A DNA stretch of 64,000 nt, taken from positions 62,001-126,000 of the forward strand of contig NZ_DAHXOI010000005.1 of the NCBI RefSeq assembly GCF_027364955.1, given 5' to 3'. Shown here piece by piece: positions 4,962 to 17,289 of this stretch (positions are counted from its first letter, which is position 1; every line of letters begins with the position of its first letter). Both the position numbers and the translations under genes were made by a program. Source of the stretch: Ferrimicrobium sp. GTDB taxonomy: Bacteria; Actinomycetota; Acidimicrobiia; Acidimicrobiales; Acidimicrobiaceae. The notes under the pieces are model-generated. The model had not been told where the DNA came from. It ran no database searches and saw only the letters and a program-made list of their open reading frames with translations.

Positions 4962-5201
4962 CTCCACAGACCTACCACCTCGGAGCGCAGGGATCGGATC
5001 GCCCGGCAGGTAAGCGACTCTGATCGAAGCCGCTCTCCCTTCAGAGGATGTAATAGACCCATTTGTGACCACTGCAACAGAGTTTCCTCGCTGACGGCGA
5101 CGGTGGATTGGTGTCTGGGCTCAACCGGGGCATCTCATTTCGCCTCGCCTCTGTACGACCCCATTCACAAAGCTGACCAGACGGCAAGGCCCGGGCTTGC
5201 C

Positions 5202-6995
5202 CTACGCCGTCACCGGTATCGCCTCGACGATGACGTTGTCGGCATAGGAGCCACCCACACCAGGGACCTCAGTAAAGGGGCCACCACAGGTGACAAGGGC
5301 GAGGGTTGGTGGACCCTGGTTGGTAAAGAGCTGAGGGTGAGCCACGGTGTTGGGAGAGAGGGTTGGTTTGGTGGTGATCTGCCAGGTGGTCTCGTGTCCT
5401 TGCCAGTTGAGGATCACAGCGATGCCAAGGCTAGCGATACCGATGCCGATGGGGAGGGCATTAGTGGTGTTGGTTGGAGCATTCGGGGGACCAGTGACCA
5501 GTTTGACTGGGGCGGGGGAGGTGGATGAGGACTTGGTGGTGGGTGTCACCGTCGTTGGCTTGGTGGTGATCACCTTTGGTGCTGTAGTTGGAACCGAGAC
5601 CGGGATAGTGAGACTCGAAGAGTTACTCGTCACCGCCGTACCCGCTGGATCGGTTGCCGTAGCAGATGCGGCATCGCTCACCTTACCGTTGGTGATGTCG
5701 GTGCTGGTGACCGTGTAGGTACCAGTACAGGTAACACTCGCACCAGCTGCCAACGATGTGACCGGGCAGGAGATCGGACCTGTCAGAGCCTCACCGGGGA
5801 CCGACTGGGTATCGGCGACAGAGAGGTTGTTCAAGGTAGTGTTGCCGGTGTTAGTCACATCAAAGTCATAGGTAACACTCTGTCCCGCCTTCGTGATGGG
5901 ATTCGGGGATCCAGGAGCCTCGATCTTGGTGAGGGAGAGGGATGGATTCGAGGGAGTGATCACAGCTGGGGTGGGGGCCACTAGGGCAGGCGGAATCTCC
6001 ACTCCAAAGGCAACGCCTTGCTCTTGGCCATCACTAGTTATAGAATCGGTGGCGGTAACCGTGGTTGGATTATTCGTGGCGAGCACGAGATCGCCAACAG
6101 CGCCTGAAGTTGAACCGACGCAAGTAACGATCCCGGTACCAATTCCCAGATTCGTCTCCGCTTGGGTCTCACTGATCGGAGTCGTCGTGGAATTGCCGCT
6201 ACTTCCCCCACAGGTATTGAGGAATGATAATGACGACTCACTCGACGTGGAGCCGTCTGGATCGGACAAAGGCTCGACCATCCCATTGACTGCAGCCCAC
6301 GAATTCGACGACGTGAATTGGACTGACTCACCGCTGTTGGTGCTCTCGCCATCGGCGGCAACCAGAGTGAAGGAAGGAATTGCGATTCCGGCGGAGGTGC
6401 TAAGACTCATGTTCGCTAGCGTGAAGCTCCAGCTGGCTGGGTAATACATAGACGAACCTCCGATGCCCTCTTGCTGAGAGTAGAGAATGTATTCTCCAGT
6501 GGAGGGAAGTCCAGTATACGCATCACGTCCAAAGGCAGCGTTGGACCAGGAGACCGGCGACGTGACCGCCTGTACGAGCGGCGGAGGACTTGAATCGCTC
6601 TCAGCGAAGTTGTAGGTCAAATCAAAGGAGAAGATGTCGCCGTTTGGAAGAACTTCCTGGTAGGGAACCGACTCCCCGGGAGTCGCCTTGATACTCCCCG
6701 CGGTCAAGTCAGGTCCATTCAATACTGCGGACGGGGCCTCTGAGTTCTCAGAGGGCACAGGTGCAGAATAATTGCCGTAATCGAACCAGCAGATGTTGCT
6801 TGCATCAGGCCCATCGGTAGCAACGCCGCAGTCTTGCGATATCGGGCTCGTTGGCGATGTCAGTGTGCTCGTCACTAGCTGGGTTGGCGAGCCGCTAGCA
6901 CCTGCAACCAGAACCCCAGCCGCAAGGGTCAGCGACGAGAGAGCGAGACCCCAGTGGGATCGGACTCCGCGCCTCCGATGTTGTGCCTTTCCCAT
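5202..6995 (-). CDS. Secreted surface protein with DUF11-type domain and a cut-down class E/F sortase domain
   Basis: A 597-residue exported protein. The start MGKAQHRRRG at 6995 gives a signal peptide with an Arg-rich n-region and hydrophobic core (about residues 12-30); an upstream in-frame ATG at 7094 would add 33 residues that spoil it. The middle is Ser/Thr-rich beta structure, followed by a DUF11/DUF7507-like domain (about 360-480: LSLTKIEAPGSPNP, VTNTGNTTLNNLSVADT, AAGASVTCTGTYTVT) and a Pro/Thr linker. The tail starts like a class E/F sortase (LPIGIGIASLGIAV), jumps to a late strand (WQITTKPTLSP), and ends with the catalytic-Cys motif LALVTCGGPF (Cys570) and DNVIVEA. The central part that should carry the catalytic His is absent. 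Either a relic or a repurposed fold. Confidence 0.75.
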   Translation of the reverse strand: MGKAQHRRRGVRSHWGLALSSLTLAAGVLVAGASGSPTQLVTSTLTSPTSPISQDCGVATDGPDASNICWFDYGNYSAPVPSENSEAPSAVLNGPDLTAGSIKATPGESVPYQEVLPNGDIFSFDLTYNFAESDSSPPPLVQAVTSPVSWSNAAFGRDAYTGLPSTGEYILYSQQEGIGGSSMYYPASWSFTLANMSLSTSAGIAIPSFTLVAADGESTNSGESVQFTSSNSWAAVNGMVEPLSDPDGSTSSESSLSFLNTCGGSSGNSTTTPISETQAETNLGIGTGIVTCVGSTSGAVGDLVLATNNPTTVTATDSITSDGQEQGVAFGVEIPPALVAPTPAVITPSNPSLSLTKIEAPGSPNPITKAGQSVTYDFDVTNTGNTTLNNLSVADTQSVPGEALTGPISCPVTSLAAGASVTCTGTYTVTSTDITNGKVSDAASATATDPAGTAVTSNSSSLTIPVSVPTTAPKVITTKPTTVTPTTKSSSTSPAPVKLVTGPPNAPTNTTNALPIGIGIASLGIAVILNWQGHETTWQITTKPTLSPNTVAHPQLFTNQGPPTLALVTCGGPFTEVPGVGGSYADNVIVEAIPVTA

Positions 6996-7530
6996 AGCGC
7001 CATCCCTTCTCGTTTGTTGCCCACAAGAACCAATCTGTCCCTGTTGAACTCCACTAATTTCCCACTGTACCGCATTGAGCGGGTTGGCGAACACTTTTTT
7101 CTAGATTTTTGGATACACCGCTAAAGTTTTTGCTGGTTTGTGACCGATAACAACGCAATCAGCGCCCGATCCCACTGGATATCGGTGTCAGAAGACCATG
7201 TCCTGAACCAAATATTTTGATCGATTAGTTGTAGCCAGTCGCCTACAGAACGGGTTTCATCACCATTATCTTTCGAGCTACCTTGATGACCCTGGTCATC
7301 GCTTGCCTCCCCAAGGAGTCGTCAGCAACTCTGCGCACATCCCCGATCTTGACGAGCTCCGTTCACTCGCGTTCCGCGGATCCGGTGGGTGACATTGGCG
7401 TGAGTGCATGGCGTTAGCCTAAATTTTGCGTGGCTGAAACCAAAAGAAGACGCACGCCTTCACTCATCTGCTGGCTACAACAAACGCATCGGGGATGCAA
7501 CCACCGCGACCTCAACAGCGAGGTAACCTT
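6996..7530. other. Gene-free divergent intergenic region
   Basis: About 535 bp between the divergent surface-protein gene and the small open frame at 7531. It is AT-richer near 7080-7140. I see no RNA gene, clear promoter pair or repeat. Confidence 0.4.
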
Positions 7531-7668
7531 ATGACCCGTCTCTATCGCTTCTTTGGGACGGAGCTCCACCATGGCAGCTCACTCTACGAGTTACTAGTCG
7601 GTCTAGATGCGACACCCATTGTGGCGGAGTCAACACAACAACACGCTGGACCACCGGTCGCCGACTAG
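7531..7668 (+). CDS. Possible 45-residue peptide upstream of the peptide-binding lipoprotein
   Basis: ATG at 7531 with GAGG 8 nt upstream opens a 45-codon frame (MTRLYRFFGTELHHG...PPVAD) that ends 36 bp before the substrate-binding protein gene. No family is recognised and no membrane segment is present. It could be a small leader protein, a fragment of a lost gene or chance. Confidence 0.25.
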   Translation: MTRLYRFFGTELHHGSSLYELLVGLDATPIVAESTQQHAGPPVAD

Positions 7669-7704
7669 TCTATCAACATTAAAGCAACCTTCAAGGAGTC
7701 ATTG

Positions 7705-9540
7705 ATGAAGCGTACAATTCGATTTGCTGGGGTCGCAGTCGCTGCTGGGGCCTTGCTCGCAGCCTGCGGTTCCACGAGCTCGAGTTCAACTTCGAGTTCG
7801 TCGTCGACCCAGCCGATCAAGGGCGGCACCGCCTACTTCGCAGAGCAGCCCGGCGCCTCCCCCAACTACATCTTTCCTCTCACGCCGAGCGGGGAGTTCT
7901 CCGTCAACAACCTCGCCCAGTTTCAGGTACTCATGTACCGACCGCTCTATTACTTCGGGAACGGTAACGACGCGTCGATCAACTACAACCTCTCCATTGG
8001 TAACCAACCAGTCTTCTCCAATGGAGACAAGACGGTGACGATTACTCTCAAACATTACGAGTGGTCGAACGGTACACCAGTCACCTCGCGCGATGTCATC
8101 TTCTTTATGAATCTGTTGAAGGCAGAGAAGGCGAACTGGGGTGCCTACGTGCCTGGAGCCTTCCCTGATAACGTAGTCTCAACCACCGCGCCAAACGCCA
8201 CCACCGTTGTCTTCCAGCTCAACAAGGCCTATAACCCGACCTGGTTCACCTACAACGAGCTCTCCCAGATCACTCCATTCCCGATGGCCTGGGATCGAAC
8301 ATCTCTGACTCAGCCCGCGCCCAACCCCAATGCCGCCAATCTCCCCGATACCACCGCGACTGGGGTCAAAGCGGTCTATTCGTTCTTAAACTCCCAAGCC
8401 GCTGATCTGTCCACCTATGCCACCAGCCCGATCTGGTCGATCGTTGATGGGCCGTGGAAACTCTCAAGCTTCACCACCGTTGGTAGAGCCGTCTTTGTAC
8501 CGAACACCAAGTACTCCGGCCCGGACAAGCCAAAGCTCTCGGAGTTCGTGGAACTACCTTTCACCAGTGCATCCTCAGAGTTCAACGTACTTCGTGCCGG
8601 GAACAACGCGATCACCTACGGGTACATCCCGACCGAAGACCTCACGCAGAAGGCAACCGTCGAGTCACTTGGTTACAACATCAACCCATGGGTTGACCTA
8701 GGTTTTAACTTCTTCCCGATCAACCTCAACAACCCAACCTATGGACCGGTCTTCCAGCAGCTCTACTTCCGACAGGCGCTTGAGCACCTGATCGATCAGC
8801 CTGCCTGGATCACCCACTTCCTCGATGGCTATGGGGTCACAACCGCATCGCCGGTACCAACCGAACCGAGCAATACCTTTGCTGACGCTACCTCGAAGAC
8901 GATCCAGTATCCGTATTCGACCTCTGCTGCAAAGAACCTGTTGACCTCCCATGGTTGGAAGGTCGTCAATGGCGTGATGACCTGCGAGAGTCCTGGAACG
9001 TCAGCGACCGAGTGTGGAGCGAACATTCCGCCGGGACGCAAGATGACCTTCAACATGATCTACGCATCGGGAGTCACCTCGCTCGCCCAAGAGATGACGG
9101 CGCTCTCCTCGGCTGCCAAGCAGATCGGAATCGTCCTCAATATCTCGGCACAGCCCTTCAACAGCGTCATCTCCGATCAGCCACACTGTACCGCCACTCA
9201 GTCGGATTGCACCTGGGAGATGGTGAACTGGGGCGGTGGCTGGGAGTACAGCCCGGATAACTATCCAACCGGTGGTGAACTCTTCGGCTCGGGACCTGGC
9301 CACACCGGTTTCAGCAACTACGCCAACAATCAGGCTAACCAACTGATCGACGCGACCCATACGGCCACCAACGCCCAGGGAGCCCTCGATGCCTATCAAA
9401 ACTTCATGGACAAGACCCTGCCGGTGATCTATCAGCCCTATCCGGACTACGCGATCTCGGCAATCTCAAAGAAGCTCGGTGGCGTCACGCAGAACCCCTA
9501 CCTCGATCTCGCACCTGAGACTTGGTACTTTACGAAATAG
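7705..9540 (+). CDS. ABC transporter substrate-binding lipoprotein, oligopeptide/nickel type (SBP family 5)
   Basis: An extracytoplasmic solute-binding lipoprotein of 611 residues. The signal peptide MKRTIRFAGVAVAAG ends in the lipobox LLAAC (Cys21), followed by a Ser/Thr linker and GGTAYFAEQPGASPNYIFPL. Family 5 features include ITLKHYEWSNGTPVTSRDVIFFMNLL, FNVLRAGNNAITYGYIP and YFRQALEHLIDQPAWI. AAGGAG lies 6 nt before the ATG at 7705; a TTG one codon upstream is less likely. No permease or ATPase genes are adjacent, so the protein is an orphan that must use a transporter encoded elsewhere. A hairpin follows the stop codon. Confidence 0.93.
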   Translation: MKRTIRFAGVAVAAGALLAACGSTSSSSTSSSSSTQPIKGGTAYFAEQPGASPNYIFPLTPSGEFSVNNLAQFQVLMYRPLYYFGNGNDASINYNLSIGNQPVFSNGDKTVTITLKHYEWSNGTPVTSRDVIFFMNLLKAEKANWGAYVPGAFPDNVVSTTAPNATTVVFQLNKAYNPTWFTYNELSQITPFPMAWDRTSLTQPAPNPNAANLPDTTATGVKAVYSFLNSQAADLSTYATSPIWSIVDGPWKLSSFTTVGRAVFVPNTKYSGPDKPKLSEFVELPFTSASSEFNVLRAGNNAITYGYIPTEDLTQKATVESLGYNINPWVDLGFNFFPINLNNPTYGPVFQQLYFRQALEHLIDQPAWITHFLDGYGVTTASPVPTEPSNTFADATSKTIQYPYSTSAAKNLLTSHGWKVVNGVMTCESPGTSATECGANIPPGRKMTFNMIYASGVTSLAQEMTALSSAAKQIGIVLNISAQPFNSVISDQPHCTATQSDCTWEMVNWGGGWEYSPDNYPTGGELFGSGPGHTGFSNYANNQANQLIDATHTATNAQGALDAYQNFMDKTLPVIYQPYPDYAISAISKKLGGVTQNPYLDLAPETWYFTK

Positions 9541-9577
9541 ACCTCCACAGGGTCTTTGGATTCAGTTCAGACTACGG

Positions 9578-9600
9578 AGGGCGCCAATCACCGGCGCCCT
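9578..9600 (+). terminator. Hairpin after the substrate-binding protein gene
   Basis: AGGGCGCC (9578-9585) pairs perfectly with GGCGCCCT (9593-9600) across a 7-nt loop, 38 bp after the stop codon. There is no T-run, as is common in high-GC actinobacteria. Confidence 0.6.
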
Positions 9601-10072
9601 TCGGCTATTGTCGTCACCCAACCAAGAAGGCAACAGAGCGAGTACACCAACTTGGCTTTCCTTTTCCCCGATGAGCACCCTTCACCAACCGATCAGTCGG
9701 TCCCTGGATAGTTACCACCGCCAATCGACACCCTACGAACACGAGCCGATCAGAGCTCCTCGCCAACCGGGCGCTGAACCTAGGCAGTCCTACAACGTAC
9801 CGGCTTGTTGTTCGGAATCGGAGTCGGCCAAAGAAGGCCGACGCTCGATCGCAGTCGTATCTGGTGGAATCCTGGTTAAGACCGCCCGCAAAATATGATT
9901 CTCGCTTCCCGCCGAGAAAGAGTCTCTGGAACCCTTGGTTGACAGATGATTAGGTCTTTCTAGGACCCGGTCGGCTCAGCCATCGCCCTTCTGCCTCTCT
10001 GTGGTTCAGGCTGGAATGAAAATGCATAATCGGATGACGTTAGTGGAATTCCCTCAAACACAGAGATGGTCA
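9601..10072. other. Gene-free stretch before the IS1634-type element
   Basis: About 470 bp without supported genes. Open frames here lack start signals and resemble nothing I know. No duplication matching the far side of the IS is visible. Confidence 0.4.
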
Positions 10073-10106
10073 GGCTAGCCGGGCTTTCAGCACATGCAGG
10101 GTCGAG
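10073..10106 (+). repeat. Left terminal inverted repeat of the IS1634-type element
   Basis: 34 bp, matching the complement of 12198-12231 at 33 positions. Confidence 0.85.
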
Positions 10107-10137
10107 GGGTGCTGTTACTGGTCAAGGAGTGATGTGA

Positions 10138-10467
10138 CTACCGGCTTTTGCCCCCTTCGGCCTGTTCGAATGCTCGGAGAGACAGGGTTTCTAACTCCCT
10201 GACGAGTTGGGGGAGTTTTCGGTCGTTGTCGAACCACTCCTGGTAGTGGGCGAGCTGGTCCTCAGTGATCTTGCGGGTCACGGTCTTGCCACGAACGGTC
10301 CTTGTCCAGGTCAGATAGGGACCGTGTAAGACCGGCGGGTCATCTTGACAGTGGCAGCCGGCTTTGCCGCACGCAGTACTGCGCCACACCAGGCTGCCCG
10401 GTAAGGCAAAGCCACTCTCGCCCAGTGAGGACTCAATGCGCTCTCGTGCTCCAGGTTCTGCCATCAT
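10138..10467 (-). CDS. DUF6788-like protein carried by the IS
   Basis: About 110 residues from MMAEPGARERIE. It shows the family pattern LPGSLVWRSTACGKAGCHCQ (two Cys-x-x-x-Cys-x-Cys type cysteines), LHGPYLTWTRTVRGKTVTRKI and a C-terminal helix LPQLVRELETL. This family is often found next to IS1634-type transposases; its role is not established, and the Cys-rich centre suggests metal or nucleic-acid binding (inference). The frame stays open further upstream to a GTG at 10530, which is possible but lies in the shared promoter region. The gene is divergent from the transposase. Confidence 0.7.
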   Translation of the reverse strand: MMAEPGARERIESSLGESGFALPGSLVWRSTACGKAGCHCQDDPPVLHGPYLTWTRTVRGKTVTRKITEDQLAHYQEWFDNDRKLPQLVRELETLSLRAFEQAEGGKSR

Positions 10468-10493
10468 CTCCACCTTTGGGTAGCTACGTCTTT

Positions 10494-10523
10494 TACTCTT
10501 GAAGTGAATATGTCTCAAGAGTA
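10494..10523. promoter_or_regulatory. Inverted repeat between the divergent IS genes
   Basis: TACTCTTGA (10494-10502) and TCAAGAGTA (10515-10523) form a perfect 9-bp inverted repeat with a 12-bp centre, between the two divergent genes of the IS. It is a candidate autoregulatory operator. Confidence 0.45.
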
Positions 10524-10552
10524 CAAACACAACCGTTACCGAGGAGAGCGCC

Positions 10553-12218
10553 GTGACCAGACGTCAGATCAACTACGGAGCACCAAGTGTGGAAAAGGCA
10601 CTGGGAGCACTTCCGGTCATCGCCGAGTTCTGTCGACGACTCGACATCTGTGGAATCGTTGATAGGGCCAGCCCGGTACGCGATATCATCGCCTATGCCA
10701 CTCACGGCCAGGTAATTGAGGCACTAGTGGCCAACCGACTGACCTCTCCTGCCCCGCTGGTCCATGTGGAGGACTGGGCCCGGGACTGGGCGGTCCAAGA
10801 GGTATTCGACCTTGACCCCAATGTCTTGAATGATGATCGCATTGGACGGGCTCTCGATGCCGTCGCTCCTCCAGTTGGCAGGCATCGTCGGTTCTATCGG
10901 TGCCAGTGCTATCGCTGAGTTCGGGATCGACGTGGCCCGCATCCACTGGGATATGACCTCGATCAGTCTCTATGGTGCCTACCGGTCACCCGACACCGAC
11001 CACATCGAACCTCGTTTTGGTCACCCGAAGGATCGTCGTCCCGACTTATTACAGGTCCAGGCGGGTCTTGCGGTTAGTGCTGACGGAGGCATTCCGATCT
11101 GGCTCCGGGCCTATGACGGCGGGGCCGGTGAGGTTGTAAAGGCAAGTCCCAGCAATGGAGGCACTTGCCACGTTGGCTGGTGAGAGACGCTTCTTGATGG
11201 TCGGGGACTCCAAACTGGTGCCTTATCCGAACCTACGGGCGATGATCGAAGCGAATGTAACTTTCATCTCTCCAGCATCGAAGTCCTACGTCGGTGCCGA
11301 TGTGCTTGCTCGCTGTGACCACGACAGCGCTTTCCCTGTCGACTACACAGCACAGCGCGATGCCAACAAATCGATCGAGGAGAGAGGATCCTGCCGAGTG
11401 TTAGAGGACACCATGGTTATAGGTGGCAAGAAGAAGTCCGATCCCGATCTGTGCCTACGTCGGGTGTTTGTGTACTCCAGCGCCCGGGCCGGCGCAGCAC
11501 AAAGAGCCCGGGAGAAGAAGCTGGCACGGGCCCGTGGAGATCTCGAGCGCCTTGGTCGTGGGATCGGGGGACGGTACTACTAAAGCGAGAAGGAGTTGAT
11601 CGAACGCATAGCGCTCATCACGCGAGAGCGCCGAGTCAAGGCCAGCTTGAGAACGATCGTCGGTACTGACCCGGTAACAGCCAAACCCACTTTGGAGTGG
11701 CACTTCGATGAGGCCGCTCTCTCCCACGGGGTCTCAACCGATGGATGGTACGCACTGCTCACCAACCTCGGGCCCGAGGTCAGCACTGCCGAGGTACTCC
11801 GCAACTACAAGGGCCAAGAGGCAGTGGAACGGCGCTACTCCAACTTCAAAGGACCGATCGCTGTTGCTCCCATGTTCTTGAAGAACAATCGCCGCATTGA
11901 GGCACTCATCAGTGTCATCTGTCTGGCGTTGCTTATCTTTAGCCTCGTCGAACGGGCGGTGTGTCTAGCCCTTGCCACTACGGCCAAACTCGCCGGCCTT
12001 TGGGCAGGGCAGCCAGCCAAGCCCACCGGACGACTCATCTTCATAGCACTCTCCCAATTACGGCTCATACCGGCAACCGCAACCAGCCCAGCCAAGATCC
12101 CAAGGCCACCGCCCCTCCAGGCCGACATCCTTTGCGCTACTCGGTGTCGATCCACGAAGACCTCGCTGAGGAGTCCCAGTTCACGAGGCGGGAGGGCTCG
12201 ACCCTGCATGTGCTGTAA
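10553..12218 (+). pseudogene. IS1634-family (DUF4277-type) transposase, multiply broken
   Basis: DDE-type transposase remains. It begins at GTG 10553 (TRRQINYGAPSVEKALGALP) with GAGGAG 6 nt upstream. The frame is lost near 10860 (continuing as LLQLAGIVGSIGASAIAEFG and IHWDMTSISLYGAY), again near 11150 (LATLAGERRFLMVGDSKLV), and there is an in-frame TAA at 11581-11583 before KELIERIALITRERR and YNFKGP-like motifs (YSNFKGPIAVAPMFLKNN). A further shift occurs near 12050-12100. At least three frameshifts and one stop make this non-functional. The order of motifs is that of IS1634-type transposases. Confidence 0.85.
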
Positions 12219-12231
12219 GCCCGGCTAGCCA
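12198..12231 (-). repeat. Right terminal inverted repeat of the IS1634-type element
   Basis: 34 bp, complement of the left end. The last transposase codons and a stop in one reading frame (about 12218) fall inside it. Confidence 0.85.
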
Positions 12232-12454
12232 AAGAGTCGATCGATCGTCTTGTAGACTAGTGTTCTTACTCAAGAGTGCAGCAAATTAGGCCAACACGTC
12301 GGAGAAAGCGGTAGGTCTGATCGAATGGATGCGCTTGCTATCGGAGAGATGGAAGGGGCGGGGAATGTCTCACCACCAAGAACTGAACCTGCACTTTGCC
12401 AACTCCGCATGCCTAACGCATAAGAGTGCATGCGTTCAGTGATAATCCAGTCCC

Positions 12455-13346
12455 CTATCCATTGAATGTTTGTGGTGGAGGTCCTGCTGGGGCCACATCA
12501 CTCGCAGCAGCGCTCGTGCCGGCCGTTGTGTCATCAGACTGCGTGAATCCGAATGCACCTGGCAGACCATCGCTTGGATACCCCGTCGGCGTGAAAAGCC
12601 CGTCGCCGTTCGCCACTAAGTCGTAGTCGTTGGTTGCGTAGGAGTTCTGGTAAAAGACGTACTCTGACTCCATCCCAATCGAGTTCACAGACGCGCTTGT
12701 AAACTGTCCTCCAGCCGACACCTGCGGGAGGATCGAAAAGGCATTACAGGGCACCGACATGTAGCCAGGCGAGGGATTGATGGAACAAATATTATCAGCT
12801 GGTGCATCGGAAAACATCGGACTCTCCATAATCCACTCGGCAGATTCAGTGCCGGGAAAACCGCTGGAGACTGTACAGTTGATCGATGCTCCAAGCGACT
12901 CTTTGATCGAATAGCTCGCGTTTTGCGTTACGTCGGTAAGGGTCATCGTCCAGGTCTGTGATGCATTCTTCACAATAGACACCGACATGGTATCTCCAGG
13001 CTCTACGGTAACAGTGTTTCCGCTTGATGTCTTAAGAGAGACGTAGGTAGCTGGCGCTGGATTAGGTGACGGAGTGACCGTCTCGACCCATTGTTGCACC
13101 GGGGAGTTCGGGGAAACAAAATTCCCCCGCTTGGATAAGTTGCTGACTGCTCTCGCCGTCAACCTCGACCCACTCGGCGAGGGCACAGTAATGGTACGGC
13201 TCGATATCGGTGCAGATCGAATTTTGCGTCGAACTGAGAGTGGGTACGACGAACGTGCCACTCACTGATGTGATCGCATCTGATGCCGACGAGGCATTAT
13301 CGACAAGCTCTGCCCAGTTCCCGGTGGCGCTCAAGTAGGCGGGAAC
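12455..13346 (-). pseudogene. Glutamic peptidase (eqolisin, family G1) domain, detached by a stop and frameshifted
   Basis: The minus strand encodes an eqolisin-like domain: SATGNWAELV, ITSVSGTFVVPTL, WVEVDGESSQQLIQAGEF (catalytic Gln, codon 13131-13133), then after a frameshift SPVQQWVETVTPSPNPAPA, VEPGDTMSVSI and SAEWIMESP (catalytic Glu, codon 12836-12838). Both active-site residues are present. The first part is in exactly the same frame as the upstream 702-residue protein and is separated from it only by TGA 13347-13349; there is no signal peptide or start of its own. A one-base loss in the C5 run at 13124-13128 splits the domain. Probably the C-terminal domain of a once larger secreted protein. 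Stop and shift could also be sequencing errors. Confidence 0.75.
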
Positions 13347-15455
13347 TCACGGCGAGTAGGTGAGCGCGATAGGAACCGTGTTGACCAGCACGTCATTGTA
13401 CTCGATATAGACACCCAGGCTGCTTGCTGACGCTGATAGTGTGCCTCCAATGACGCCAGACGAGCTGAGTGTCAATCCCGAGGGCCAAGTACCTGATTCT
13501 GCGTAGGTGTATCCCGTTCCTTCCCCCGAAGCGACTGCCAACTGGATATCGGGTGACGCACCAGACGTGTAGTCCTCGGTAGATAAAGTTGGATGCTTAA
13601 AACTGGCTTCGACGGCACTGAGTGCTGACCCTGACCCTGAAGACACCTCAATACGCTCGTAGGAGTCTCCTCTCATGCTACTCGCATCGAATTCAGTGCT
13701 ATTGACCGTCAACACCCCACTTGAGCTAAGGTAATATAAGCTGGGTAGGCTAACTAAAGACCATGTGTAGCTTCCACTCCCGCCACTAGCCGTCAACTGG
13801 ATACTCTGACCTGGATACATAGAGGATGGCAACGTTCCCATTGTTAAGGGGCTCGGCAGTGCAATCGAGATTGGAACATCCCCGAGTAGGTCTCCGTTGT
13901 AGGACAGTGCCACCTCAAGTCCGGTGGCTGCTGAGGCGATCGTTCCGCTCAGCGCTCCGCTGGACGATAAAGAGAGCCCAGAGGGCCAAGTACCTGATTC
14001 TGCGTAGGTGTATCCGCTGCCGTAAGAACTTGGGACCGAGACTTGCCCGCTCACACTATACGGCGAGCTAGAACCCGTGGCCGTGAACGATGAAGTCGTA
14101 AGACTAGGTGCTTGAGCTGTGACGTTGAGCACAATCGTAGTTACTTGGTAGCCGCTTTCAATTGTCACGGTGAAGCTTGTCGTCAACGATTGACTGCCAA
14201 GGAGATTAGAGACGTTAAGGCTTAGCTCGCCCGACGAGGAGAGATTCAACCAATCGGGCATACCAGCACTAGCACCCCATGAATAGCTTCCATCACCTCC
14301 ACTGGCTGTGAGTTGCATGGTCTGTCCTGGTATGGTGTCGTAACTCGTGGTTGGAACCTGAATCGCAGGCTCGATCTGCTGTCGACCACCCCCTGTTGCA
14401 CCGCCACCGCCACCCTGTGGCTCCTGAGGGGCCACAGGAACCTTAGGAGCGATGGGGACCAGTGGTTGTGAAGGCTGTGAATTTTGAAGCTTATTCGGGA
14501 TCACAAATACCTTGCCATTGGGCGCAACTGGAACGTCTGGAACTTGAGGAGCTCCACCAATCGCCAAGACCTTACCGTTGCCAAGTACTGCGTAATAGCC
14601 AGAACCGTTTGGATTAACGACCAGGCTCGTCACCTTGGCTGGCAACGGGTTCTTGCCACCCGGTCCGGTGTAGCCAAGGTCGAGAACCGACCCAGGCGAA
14701 GGAGCACTACCCACGTTAAGAGTGCTACCGTCTTGCCCGACCAAGGCTATGCCGTTACCCGAAGGCGCGGCAACGGCTCCCATGATTGGGGCCGAAAGAG
14801 GTTTGCTTCCTCCGAGTCCGGTATAGCCAAGAGAATACGATGACCCCAAGAACGGCGCGGACCCAAAGTTGAACACCCCACCATCAGAGGCAACAAGCCA
14901 GTAACCAGTTCCCGATGGGTCAAGAACCATCGATGTGACAGGAGCATCCAGCGGTCTCTTACCTGTGAATCCGGTGACCCCATAGGTGTATGTGGAACCA
15001 AGGAACGGCGCGGACCCAAAGTTGAACACACCCCCATCAGAGGCAACAAGCCAGTAACCAGTTCCCGAGGGGTCGGCTGCGATCCCAACGATTGGAGCGT
15101 TGAGGGGCTTGGCTCCCGAGAGTCCGGTTAAACCGTCTGTGTAGGTGTCGCCGTAGTACTTAGCATCGCCATAAGCGAAGACGTGCCCCGAACGGGTTAC
15201 GATCCAGTATCCTCCGCCGTCGGGTGTTGGAGTTGCGGCCACGACTGTGTGAGAGCCGGTCACGGAGCCATAGATCTGTGCTCCGTCCTCGCCGGTAACG
15301 GTCCCGGTTTGGGAGATCGCGATAATGCCTGGACCGGACGATGTAGCGCTTGCGGCTGAGCTTGTACTGGCAAACGCCGTCGCTGGCAGAGCCACGAGTG
15401 AGGCTACTGCTAGCGCTCCTCCTGCAACGAACGATAGTGGCTTCCTGATACGCAT
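13347..15455 (-). CDS. Secreted repeat protein: propeller-like N-terminus, Ig-like/putative cadherin-type C-terminus
   Basis: A 702-residue exported protein starting at ATG 15455 (MRIRKPLSFVAGG), with GGAGG 9 nt upstream; a GTG three codons earlier sits too close to it. The signal peptide ends near ATAFAS. Residues about 60-310 hold five repeats of the actinobacterial type GTGYWLVASDGGVFNFG. A Pro/Gly-rich linker (about 315-350) follows, then Ig-like beta modules with repeated YTYAESGTWPSGLSLSSSG units (about 360-700). Two repeats are almost identical at DNA level (14851-14921 and 15004-15074). The reading frame continues past the TGA into a G1 peptidase domain, so this gene may be the truncated front of a larger secreted protease. 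Likely cell-surface or extracellular. Confidence 0.8.
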   Translation of the reverse strand: MRIRKPLSFVAGGALAVASLVALPATAFASTSSAASATSSGPGIIAISQTGTVTGEDGAQIYGSVTGSHTVVAATPTPDGGGYWIVTRSGHVFAYGDAKYYGDTYTDGLTGLSGAKPLNAPIVGIAADPSGTGYWLVASDGGVFNFGSAPFLGSTYTYGVTGFTGKRPLDAPVTSMVLDPSGTGYWLVASDGGVFNFGSAPFLGSSYSLGYTGLGGSKPLSAPIMGAVAAPSGNGIALVGQDGSTLNVGSAPSPGSVLDLGYTGPGGKNPLPAKVTSLVVNPNGSGYYAVLGNGKVLAIGGAPQVPDVPVAPNGKVFVIPNKLQNSQPSQPLVPIAPKVPVAPQEPQGGGGGATGGGRQQIEPAIQVPTTSYDTIPGQTMQLTASGGDGSYSWGASAGMPDWLNLSSSGELSLNVSNLLGSQSLTTSFTVTIESGYQVTTIVLNVTAQAPSLTTSSFTATGSSSPYSVSGQVSVPSSYGSGYTYAESGTWPSGLSLSSSGALSGTIASAATGLEVALSYNGDLLGDVPISIALPSPLTMGTLPSSMYPGQSIQLTASGGSGSYTWSLVSLPSLYYLSSSGVLTVNSTEFDASSMRGDSYERIEVSSGSGSALSAVEASFKHPTLSTEDYTSGASPDIQLAVASGEGTGYTYAESGTWPSGLTLSSSGVIGGTLSASASSLGVYIEYNDVLVNTVPIALTYSP
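14851..15074. repeat. Two near-identical 71-bp coding repeats
   Basis: 14851-14921 and 15004-15074 differ at only a few bases. They encode consecutive propeller-type repeats, whose other copies are more diverged, pointing to recent duplication or gene conversion. Confidence 0.75.
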
Positions 15456-15776
15456 GATCCTCACCCTCCATGGAAAAGTAGTTGCGTGGTTGTTGAGTGT
15501 TCATCGGCAGACCTATGGTGCTCCTGAAAGAGAAGAAGCTGTTTAAGACTACCGATCGCCATCGGGGACAATCCAGAGCGTCTCGAGTCCGAATCTTGAC
15601 GACCTCGTTCGACACCCCATCAAGCACACGACTTAATCCGTCGAGCGAACTGACTCTTCATCGACTGTTTACCTGACATCTTCTGCGGCGTTCGATCGTG
15701 GCAACATGGCGCTCCTACGTTATGGTTGTCGCGACAGATAGGTGCGGCCAGAGCCTAACAAGGGAGGTCAGAACGT

Positions 15777-17191
15777 ATGAGTGAGGTGATCGACGGAGAC
15801 TGGGACCCGTTCGCGGTCCAAGACCACTCCAAGTTTCAATGGTTCCACTGGAAGTCTATTTTTACAATCTCGATGGGCGTATTTGCCGACGGATACGACC
15901 TGTCGTCTATTGGAATCGTGCTGCCACTCGTCCTGGCCTCCTTCGGCGTGAAGTCCCTTGTGGGCATCGAGGCCTCGCTGCTCACAGCCTCAGCGCTGGG
16001 TGGTGCGGTGATCGGGTCACTCATCTTTGGGCTACTCGCCAACAAAGGGCGTAAACGCTTCTATGGTCTCGATGTTGGCCTGATGACGCTCGGAGCGGTC
16101 TTGCAGATCTTCGTCACTAACGTCCCAGAGCTGATCGCGGTTAGGTTGCTGTTGGGAATTGGAGTCGGTGCCGACTATGTCCTGTCCCCCATGATCATGG
16201 GAGAACACTCGAATGCCAAGGACCGCAGCAAGACCATGTCCTTTGGCTTTGGACTGATGTGGGGCTTTGGTGCCGTGCTTTCCGCATTCCTCTACTTCAT
16301 CCTCCATGGTCTCGGCGTGGCACCGGACCTGATCTGGAGAGTCGTCCTCGGTTTCGGCGCGGTACCAACGCTCGCGGTCATCTATCTTCGGCGCAAAATG
16401 CCTGAAACGGCACGCTTCCTTGGGAGAATTAAAGGAGACGCAAAAGCTACTGCGTCCGTGGTCACCCAGGCCTCAAGTGTCCCCACGAACTCCGAGTCCT
16501 TTGAGGACTTGAAGGACCCTCACGGCTTTGGCTTCTACTTTCGTCGTGAGTGGCGGACCTTCCTTGGGGTTTGCCTGTTGTGGTTCCTCTTCGACATGGT
16601 TGCCTACTCAAGCATCCTCTTTGGCCCCTCGGTGATCGCCAAGCACATCGGTCTTGGCCCCGATACCTTCCAGTTCCTCATGGAGGGTGCATTTACCATT
16701 CCAGGGGCATCGTTGCTCTTCTGTTGATCGACAGAGCGGGTAGAAAGCCCCTGCAGTTGCTGGGATTCATCGGCATGGCTGGAGCCCTCATCTCGTATGG
16801 TTTGGTTACCGGCGGGGGAGCTCTGGCCGCTGCACCAGTACTGGCCTTTGTTCTCTATGGTTCGCAGAACTTCTTCTCGCAAGCTGGCCCAGGGTCAGTG
16901 AGTGCATCTGGGGTGCTTGGGGTCGAGCTCGCACCGACAAAGGTACGCGGAACGGTTCAAGCCCTCACCGTCGCCTCCGGTCGCCTTGGTGCAACCCTAA
17001 CCGCCTTCGTCTTTCCCTTCCTGATTCGCGTCTACGGCGAGTCCTTCGCGGTGTACTTTCTCGCAGGTTTGGCGGTCCTAGCTGCGATCGTGACCGTGTG
17101 GGTGATGCCCGAGACCAAGCGAAGGAGCCTCGAGCAGTCATCAGGCGAGGCCAAGCTCATGGAGGAGGAGAGCCTGGTCGTGCAGCCGTAG
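15777..17191 (+). pseudogene. Major facilitator superfamily carrier (sugar/metabolite:H+ type), frameshifted
   Basis: Encodes a 12-helix carrier of about 471 residues when one frameshift is repaired. GGGAGG precedes the ATG at 15777. The first part reads MSEVIDGDWDPFAV and includes GVFADGYDLSSIGI, the helix 2-3 loop LLANKGRKR and RLLLGIGVGADYVLSP; it ends at TGA 16725-16727. The other frame resumes as GIVALLLIDRAGRKPLQLLGF (the conserved R-x-G-R-K loop) and runs to 17191 with VRGTVQALTVASGRLGA and MPETKRRSLE. One missing G in the run at 16704-16707 would rejoin the frames. Either an inactive gene or a sequencing error. The substrate is unknown; a 13-bp terminator hairpin follows. Confidence 0.85.
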
Positions 17192-17239
17192 CTGACTGGT
17201 AGACCCCTCAGGGTCGAGTGTTCCAAACTATCAACCGTC

Positions 17240-17273
17240 GATCGCTCCTCGCTCCCCTCGGCGAGGAGCGATC
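17240..17273 (+). terminator. Strong hairpin after the MFS gene
   Basis: GATCGCTCCTCGC (17240-17252) pairs perfectly over 13 bp with 17261-17273 across an 8-nt loop, 48 bp after the MFS stop. Confidence 0.75.
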
Positions 17274-17289
17274 CGATTCATGACCGATA

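Follow-up and report, generated by a model that had tools for sequence, protein, structure and literature searches.

A probably inactivated, recombinant gene for a secreted, multidomain G1 glutamic peptidase in Ferrimicrobium sp.

On the minus strand of a 64,000-nucleotide stretch of Ferrimicrobium sp. DNA (here called the window; contig NZ_DAHXOI010000005.1, positions 62,001 to 126,000), an open reading frame (ORF) for a putatively secreted propeller/Ig-like protein is separated by a single TGA from sequence of the G1 glutamic peptidases (eqolisins). The question raised by this locus was whether the TGA divides two genes, is read through, ends a working shorter protein, is an artefact of the sequence, or is a lesion in one fused gene. 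The last answer was favoured with good confidence: the locus is most probably a recently inactivated, recombinant gene copy whose ancestor encoded a secreted, multidomain, fused G1 glutamic peptidase.

Domain organization on both sides of the TGA

The 705-codon ORF extended on the minus strand from GTG 15464 to the TGA, with ATG 15455 as the likelier start, and it displayed the order signal-peptide-like stretch, ~51-residue repeats, Pro/Gly linker, and Ig-like repeats (Table 1). A Pfam search of this open part gave no match. The low-confidence AlphaFold model of an intact relative (locus L026; mean pLDDT 52.9 and pTM 0.30, too weak for a fold search) contained five three-strand units in its N part; the propeller assignment was drawn from the repeat pattern, and this model would be compatible with it without proving it.

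Table 1. Features of the fused gene copy and its immediate surroundings (positions in the window)
Feature	Position	Strand	Basis or remark
Degenerate IS1634-family element with inverted terminal repeats; its transposase is spread across several frames	10073..12230	.	Adjoins the 3' end of the gene
Second half of G1 peptidase domain, other frame, to natural stop	12455..13117	-	PF01828 positions 87-146
Frame-change site, one base more than both relatives	13117..13124	-	DNA alignment with G005:C81 and G003:C83
First half of G1 peptidase domain, NWAE to LIQAG	13125..13319	-	PF01828, E 7e-8
Missense at invariant glycine, WVGIDG to WVEVDG	13164..13166	-	Gly in 34/34 other eqolisins
Missense at invariant glycine, NWAG to NWAE	13308..13310	-	Gly in 32/32 other eqolisins
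In-frame TGA in variable linker before peptidase	13347..13349	-	DNA alignment with relatives
Open part (signal peptide, propeller-like repeats, Pro/Gly-rich linker, Ig-like repeats)	13350..15455	-	Ends at the TGA
Ig-like repeats	13350..14351	-	Alignment with intact relatives
Propeller-like region, ~51-residue repeats (GYWLVASDGGVFNFG type)	14520..15332	-	Alignment
Predicted signal peptide (MRIRKPLSFVAGGALAVASLVALPATAFA)	15366..15455	-	Direct reading of the sequence
MFS transporter, frameshifted near 16704-16707	15777..17191	+	G4 where G003 has G5

The same frame stayed open past the TGA for 94 codons (to ~13062) and matched positions 2 to 61 of Peptidase_A4 (PF01828) with 32.6 bits, above the Pfam cut-off of 22.3 bits, just as the original prediction had described when it let the propeller/Ig frame continue into an eqolisin domain. 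The second piece was found in a different open frame (13261 to 12455) and scored 22.0 bits (E 1e-4, just below the cut-off) as a cut piece and 23.4 bits in the genome search. Being adjacent and collinear halves of one family, the two pieces were not regarded as chance matches. The predicted retention of both catalytic residues was borne out: the Gln codon CAA (13133-13131, in LIQAG) and the Glu codon GAG (12826-12824, in AEWIME) aligned with Q53 and E136 of scytalidopepsin B (1s2b; residue numbers counted by hand from the printed alignment) in a profile search of solved structures, while phmmer with one bacterial eqolisin domain against solved structures gave no match. The remnant thus possessed the family profile and the catalytic dyad of G1 peptidases, but it had Glu in place of both glycines of the NW-x-G and WVGIDG motifs and was coded in a frame interrupted by the TGA and a frame change. 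As had also been predicted, no signal peptide was detected between the TGA and the peptidase halves, the sole start there being a weak TTG at 13334.

Fused relatives, mosaic history, and genomic neighbourhood

The search for fused orthologues that had been suggested as a check was successful: within the genus, the 705-aa protein had its matches inside open frames of 941 to 1065 aa, and the translated loci of four relatives (G003:C83, G005:C81, G003:C117, and G002:C110) carried propeller, Ig, and eqolisin parts in one intact ORF of 937 to 1047 aa. Because same-genus genomes carried one intact ORF, the fusion was taken to be real and ancestral, and both lesions, the TGA and the frame change, were peculiar to the window copy. 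The genome of the window itself harbored three other intact eqolisins, two of them propeller-fused (C11, 644 aa, and C5). G003:C69, an intact propeller/Ig protein of 1035 aa, gave no PF01828 match.

The propeller-eqolisin fusion was also found in a number of further genera of this family. The supposed rarity of eqolisins in bacteria held for the phylum, where they occurred in 14 of 396 genomes drawn, but not for this family, where 26 of 42 genomes had them, often fused to the same propeller. A search of named genomes with the peptidase alignment recovered six loci in three assemblies, belonging to Ferrimicrobium sp. and metagenome-assembled actinomycetes, in agreement with the acid-living actinobacterium that had been proposed as host; the corresponding search with the Ig part recovered no relatives.

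The peptidase parts of the window gene and G005:C81 had 81% DNA identity, with dN 0.114 and dS 0.628. This dS lay near that of the neighbouring substrate-binding-protein (SBP) and MFS genes between the window and the G005 genome (0.49 to 0.53), so the domain behaved like an orthologue that stayed under constraint until lately, and the ratio of 0.114 to 0.628 shows constraint over most of its history. The propeller had a dS of ~1.9 to G005:C81, the Ig part was saturated, and DNA identity climbed sharply at ~13319, the first peptidase residue. The propeller tree placed the window copy with the G003 copies (96/95) and the peptidase-less G003:C69 with the window copy (89/93), in conflict with the peptidase tree, in which the window paired with G005 (91/97, not starred). 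The gene is thus a mosaic of an orthologue-like peptidase and a far older propeller/Ig half, and these different histories suggest that domain ends were swapped between gene copies before the breakage. Changes on the window branch numbered 15 versus 8, an excess that was not significant (p 0.21).

An additional eqolisin of 350 aa was present in G001 as two copies, L039 1147-2187 and L057 1138-2187 (G001:C3 and G001:C39), which had in common an in-frame TAG directly behind the NWAG motif, where the intact G002 copy L037 had TCG. Past the TAG, codon differences between the two copies were 9 synonymous and 3 non-synonymous (dN/dS ~0.12), and the copies can be considered candidates for readthrough or for a gene-converted pseudogene pair. 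Among L039, L057, and L037, the part before the TAG was more diverged (dS 0.11 to 0.38) than the peptidase part (dS 0.06 to 0.08), a pattern also displayed by the window gene; exchange of peptidase ends may be frequent.

Two flanking segments of the window, 5195-9780 and 15631-17278, matched the contig of G003:C83, and between these flanks G003 had a fused eqolisin gene in the orientation opposite to that in the window, while in G005 the two flanking genes adjoined at a distance of ~400 bases. In a comparison of L068 2719-6420, L018 5707-13636, and window 7702-17191, the SBP-MFS gap was empty in G005, contained the fused eqolisin in G003, and contained the opposite-facing eqolisin plus the insertion sequence in the window; on this sequence comparison, the gap is a possible insertion hot spot. 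The IS1634-family element had ~34-base terminal repeats, an oppositely oriented ORF for DUF6788, and a 74%-identical copy in contig C2. The MFS protein of the window was 94 to 95% identical to the intact G003 gene product, and the MFS gene was intact in G005 too; its frameshift in the window could be a recent real mutation or a sequencing or assembly slip. These decayed surroundings, the IS1634 remnant and the frameshifted MFS gene, were counted in favour of decay of the fused gene.

Lesions and competing explanations

The TGA aligned with ACT (Thr) in G005:C81 and with a gap in G003:C83. About 75 codons beyond it, a frame change shifted the second peptidase half to the other frame; a second lesion had been predicted in the C5 run at 13124-13128, and the lesion itself was found, but its placing in that run was not supported. 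Because this G5/C5 run had equal length in the window and in the closest relative G005:C81, the extra base was most simply placed in the adjoining AATTTT (~13117-13124), where other gap placements would be possible. Besides these two lesions, the copy had lost residues at two positions that did not vary among 34 other aligned eqolisins (32 of them comparable at NW-x-G), and fully invariant columns were otherwise broken only by two stop-bearing ORF fragments without the N-terminal motif; moreover, the seven closest copies all had Pro ahead of the conserved Trp, where the window had Gln. Such independent residue losses favour true decay over sequencing error, and the locus combined disabling lesions absent from intact orthologues with the loss of invariant residues, as is looked for in a pseudogene.

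The proposal that the organism has an intact gene, with the TGA and the frame change as sequencing or assembly artefacts, was judged unlikely. The neighbouring MFS gene is one G short of a G5 run despite its close identity to the intact relative, as in a typical homopolymer slip, and, if the strain is F. acidiphilum T23T, its assembly was built from both 454 and Illumina reads (PMC4417700); but the published Illumina coverage was 145-fold (PMC4417700), the TGA differed from the codon of the closest relative by more than one base, the frame change lay outside the G run, whose length equals that of the relative, and an error would leave unexplained that two invariant positions independently changed from Gly to Glu. 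A functional truncation, in which the TGA is the new functional terminus of a secreted propeller/Ig protein that has shed its peptidase and only the peptidase part is dead, is a sub-case of the inactivation reading, so that its standing overlaps with that of the latter, and it was entertained tentatively, at clearly less than even chances. All 705 upstream codons are open, so this part may still be under selection, every lesion lies within the last 30% of the gene, and the genus contains an intact peptidase-less propeller/Ig protein, G003:C69, that groups with the window copy in the propeller tree; however, a chance placing of two lesions in the last third is not rare, the fourth propeller repeat of the window copy is eroded in the alignment, and dS of the open part to its relatives is near saturation, at which openness alone cannot show recent selection.

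Programmed recoding, in which TGA readthrough plus a +1 frameshift yields a small amount of full-length peptidase, was considered extremely improbable. The domain is largely kept, as are both catalytic residues, and an unrelated second eqolisin of the same genus has the common in-frame TAG in its two G001 copies; yet the relatives have a sense codon or no codon at the TGA site, readthrough by itself stops near 13062, short of the catalytic Glu, and the mechanism would require two rare events in the space of 75 codons, in a domain whose invariant glycines are also lost. A readthrough gene is expected to have a stop conserved in orthologues and a constrained open frame behind it, while here the frame breaks after ~75 codons. 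Readthrough as a working mechanism, which the original prediction had named as something to test, was accordingly rejected on the stop-free relatives and the readthrough product ending before Glu, as was recoding with the frameshift. The chance that a separate peptidase gene with its own start follows the TGA was taken as practically negligible: candidate starts exist at TTG 13334 and GTG 13261, but such a gene would have neither a signal peptide nor a convincing ribosome-binding site, its reading would still be broken midway, and all relatives are fused, on which grounds it too was rejected. The case looks like an ordinary decay event, and no new decoding mechanism is supported.

Under the preferred reading, inactivation of a recombinant copy, the ancestor would have been one protein with a signal peptide, propeller-like repeats, Ig-like repeats, and an eqolisin domain. 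Its intact versions presumably reach the acidic medium by secretion; there, the repeats would attach to a surface or substrate, and proteins would be cleaved by the C-terminal Gln/Glu dyad, as the biochemistry of the family suggests. The linker TGA, the one-base frame change, and the two Gly-to-Glu changes would have destroyed the peptidase, and the product still made would be no more than a secreted propeller/Ig protein lacking the peptidase; the loss would be tolerable given the three intact eqolisins elsewhere in the genome.

Implications and comparison with known systems

A literature search on glutamic peptidases in Acidimicrobia, confined to one library, found no paper on this architecture, which seems little described: secreted propeller/Ig proteins ending in a G1 peptidase, frequent in one acidophilic actinobacterial family of a phylum otherwise poor in G1 peptidases. 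The decayed, recombinant window copy suggests that these fused genes turn over and swap their peptidase ends. A bolder and very unlikely proposal is that the eqolisin end is a swappable cassette among secreted Ferrimicrobium propeller proteins, switched by stop codons at its entrance, with silent copies kept as donors or read through at a low level; if so, the TGA of the window and the shared TAG of the two G001 copies would be two instances of one practice.

The window gene was compared with three kinds of known or related systems: (i) MEROPS family G1 (eqolisins, PF01828), as represented by scytalidopepsin B (1s2b), aspergillopepsin II (1y43), and the bacterial pepG1 of Alicyclobacillus (PMC3009609), with which the N and C halves of the window domain were collinear and, for 1s2b, the dyad aligned, while the window domain was cut by the TGA and the frame change, had Glu at two family-wide glycines, and, unlike the solved fungal enzymes, came after a propeller/Ig half; (ii) the fused same-genus proteins L026 (G003:C83), L008 (G005:C81), L027, and L028 and the own-genome paralogue C11, which had the identical part order, signal-peptide-like start, and repeat type but were single intact ORFs; and (iii) G003:C69, which resembled the product that the window gene would encode up to the TGA, propeller plus Ig repeats, but had a natural end and an ORF in which no eqolisin sequence was detected.
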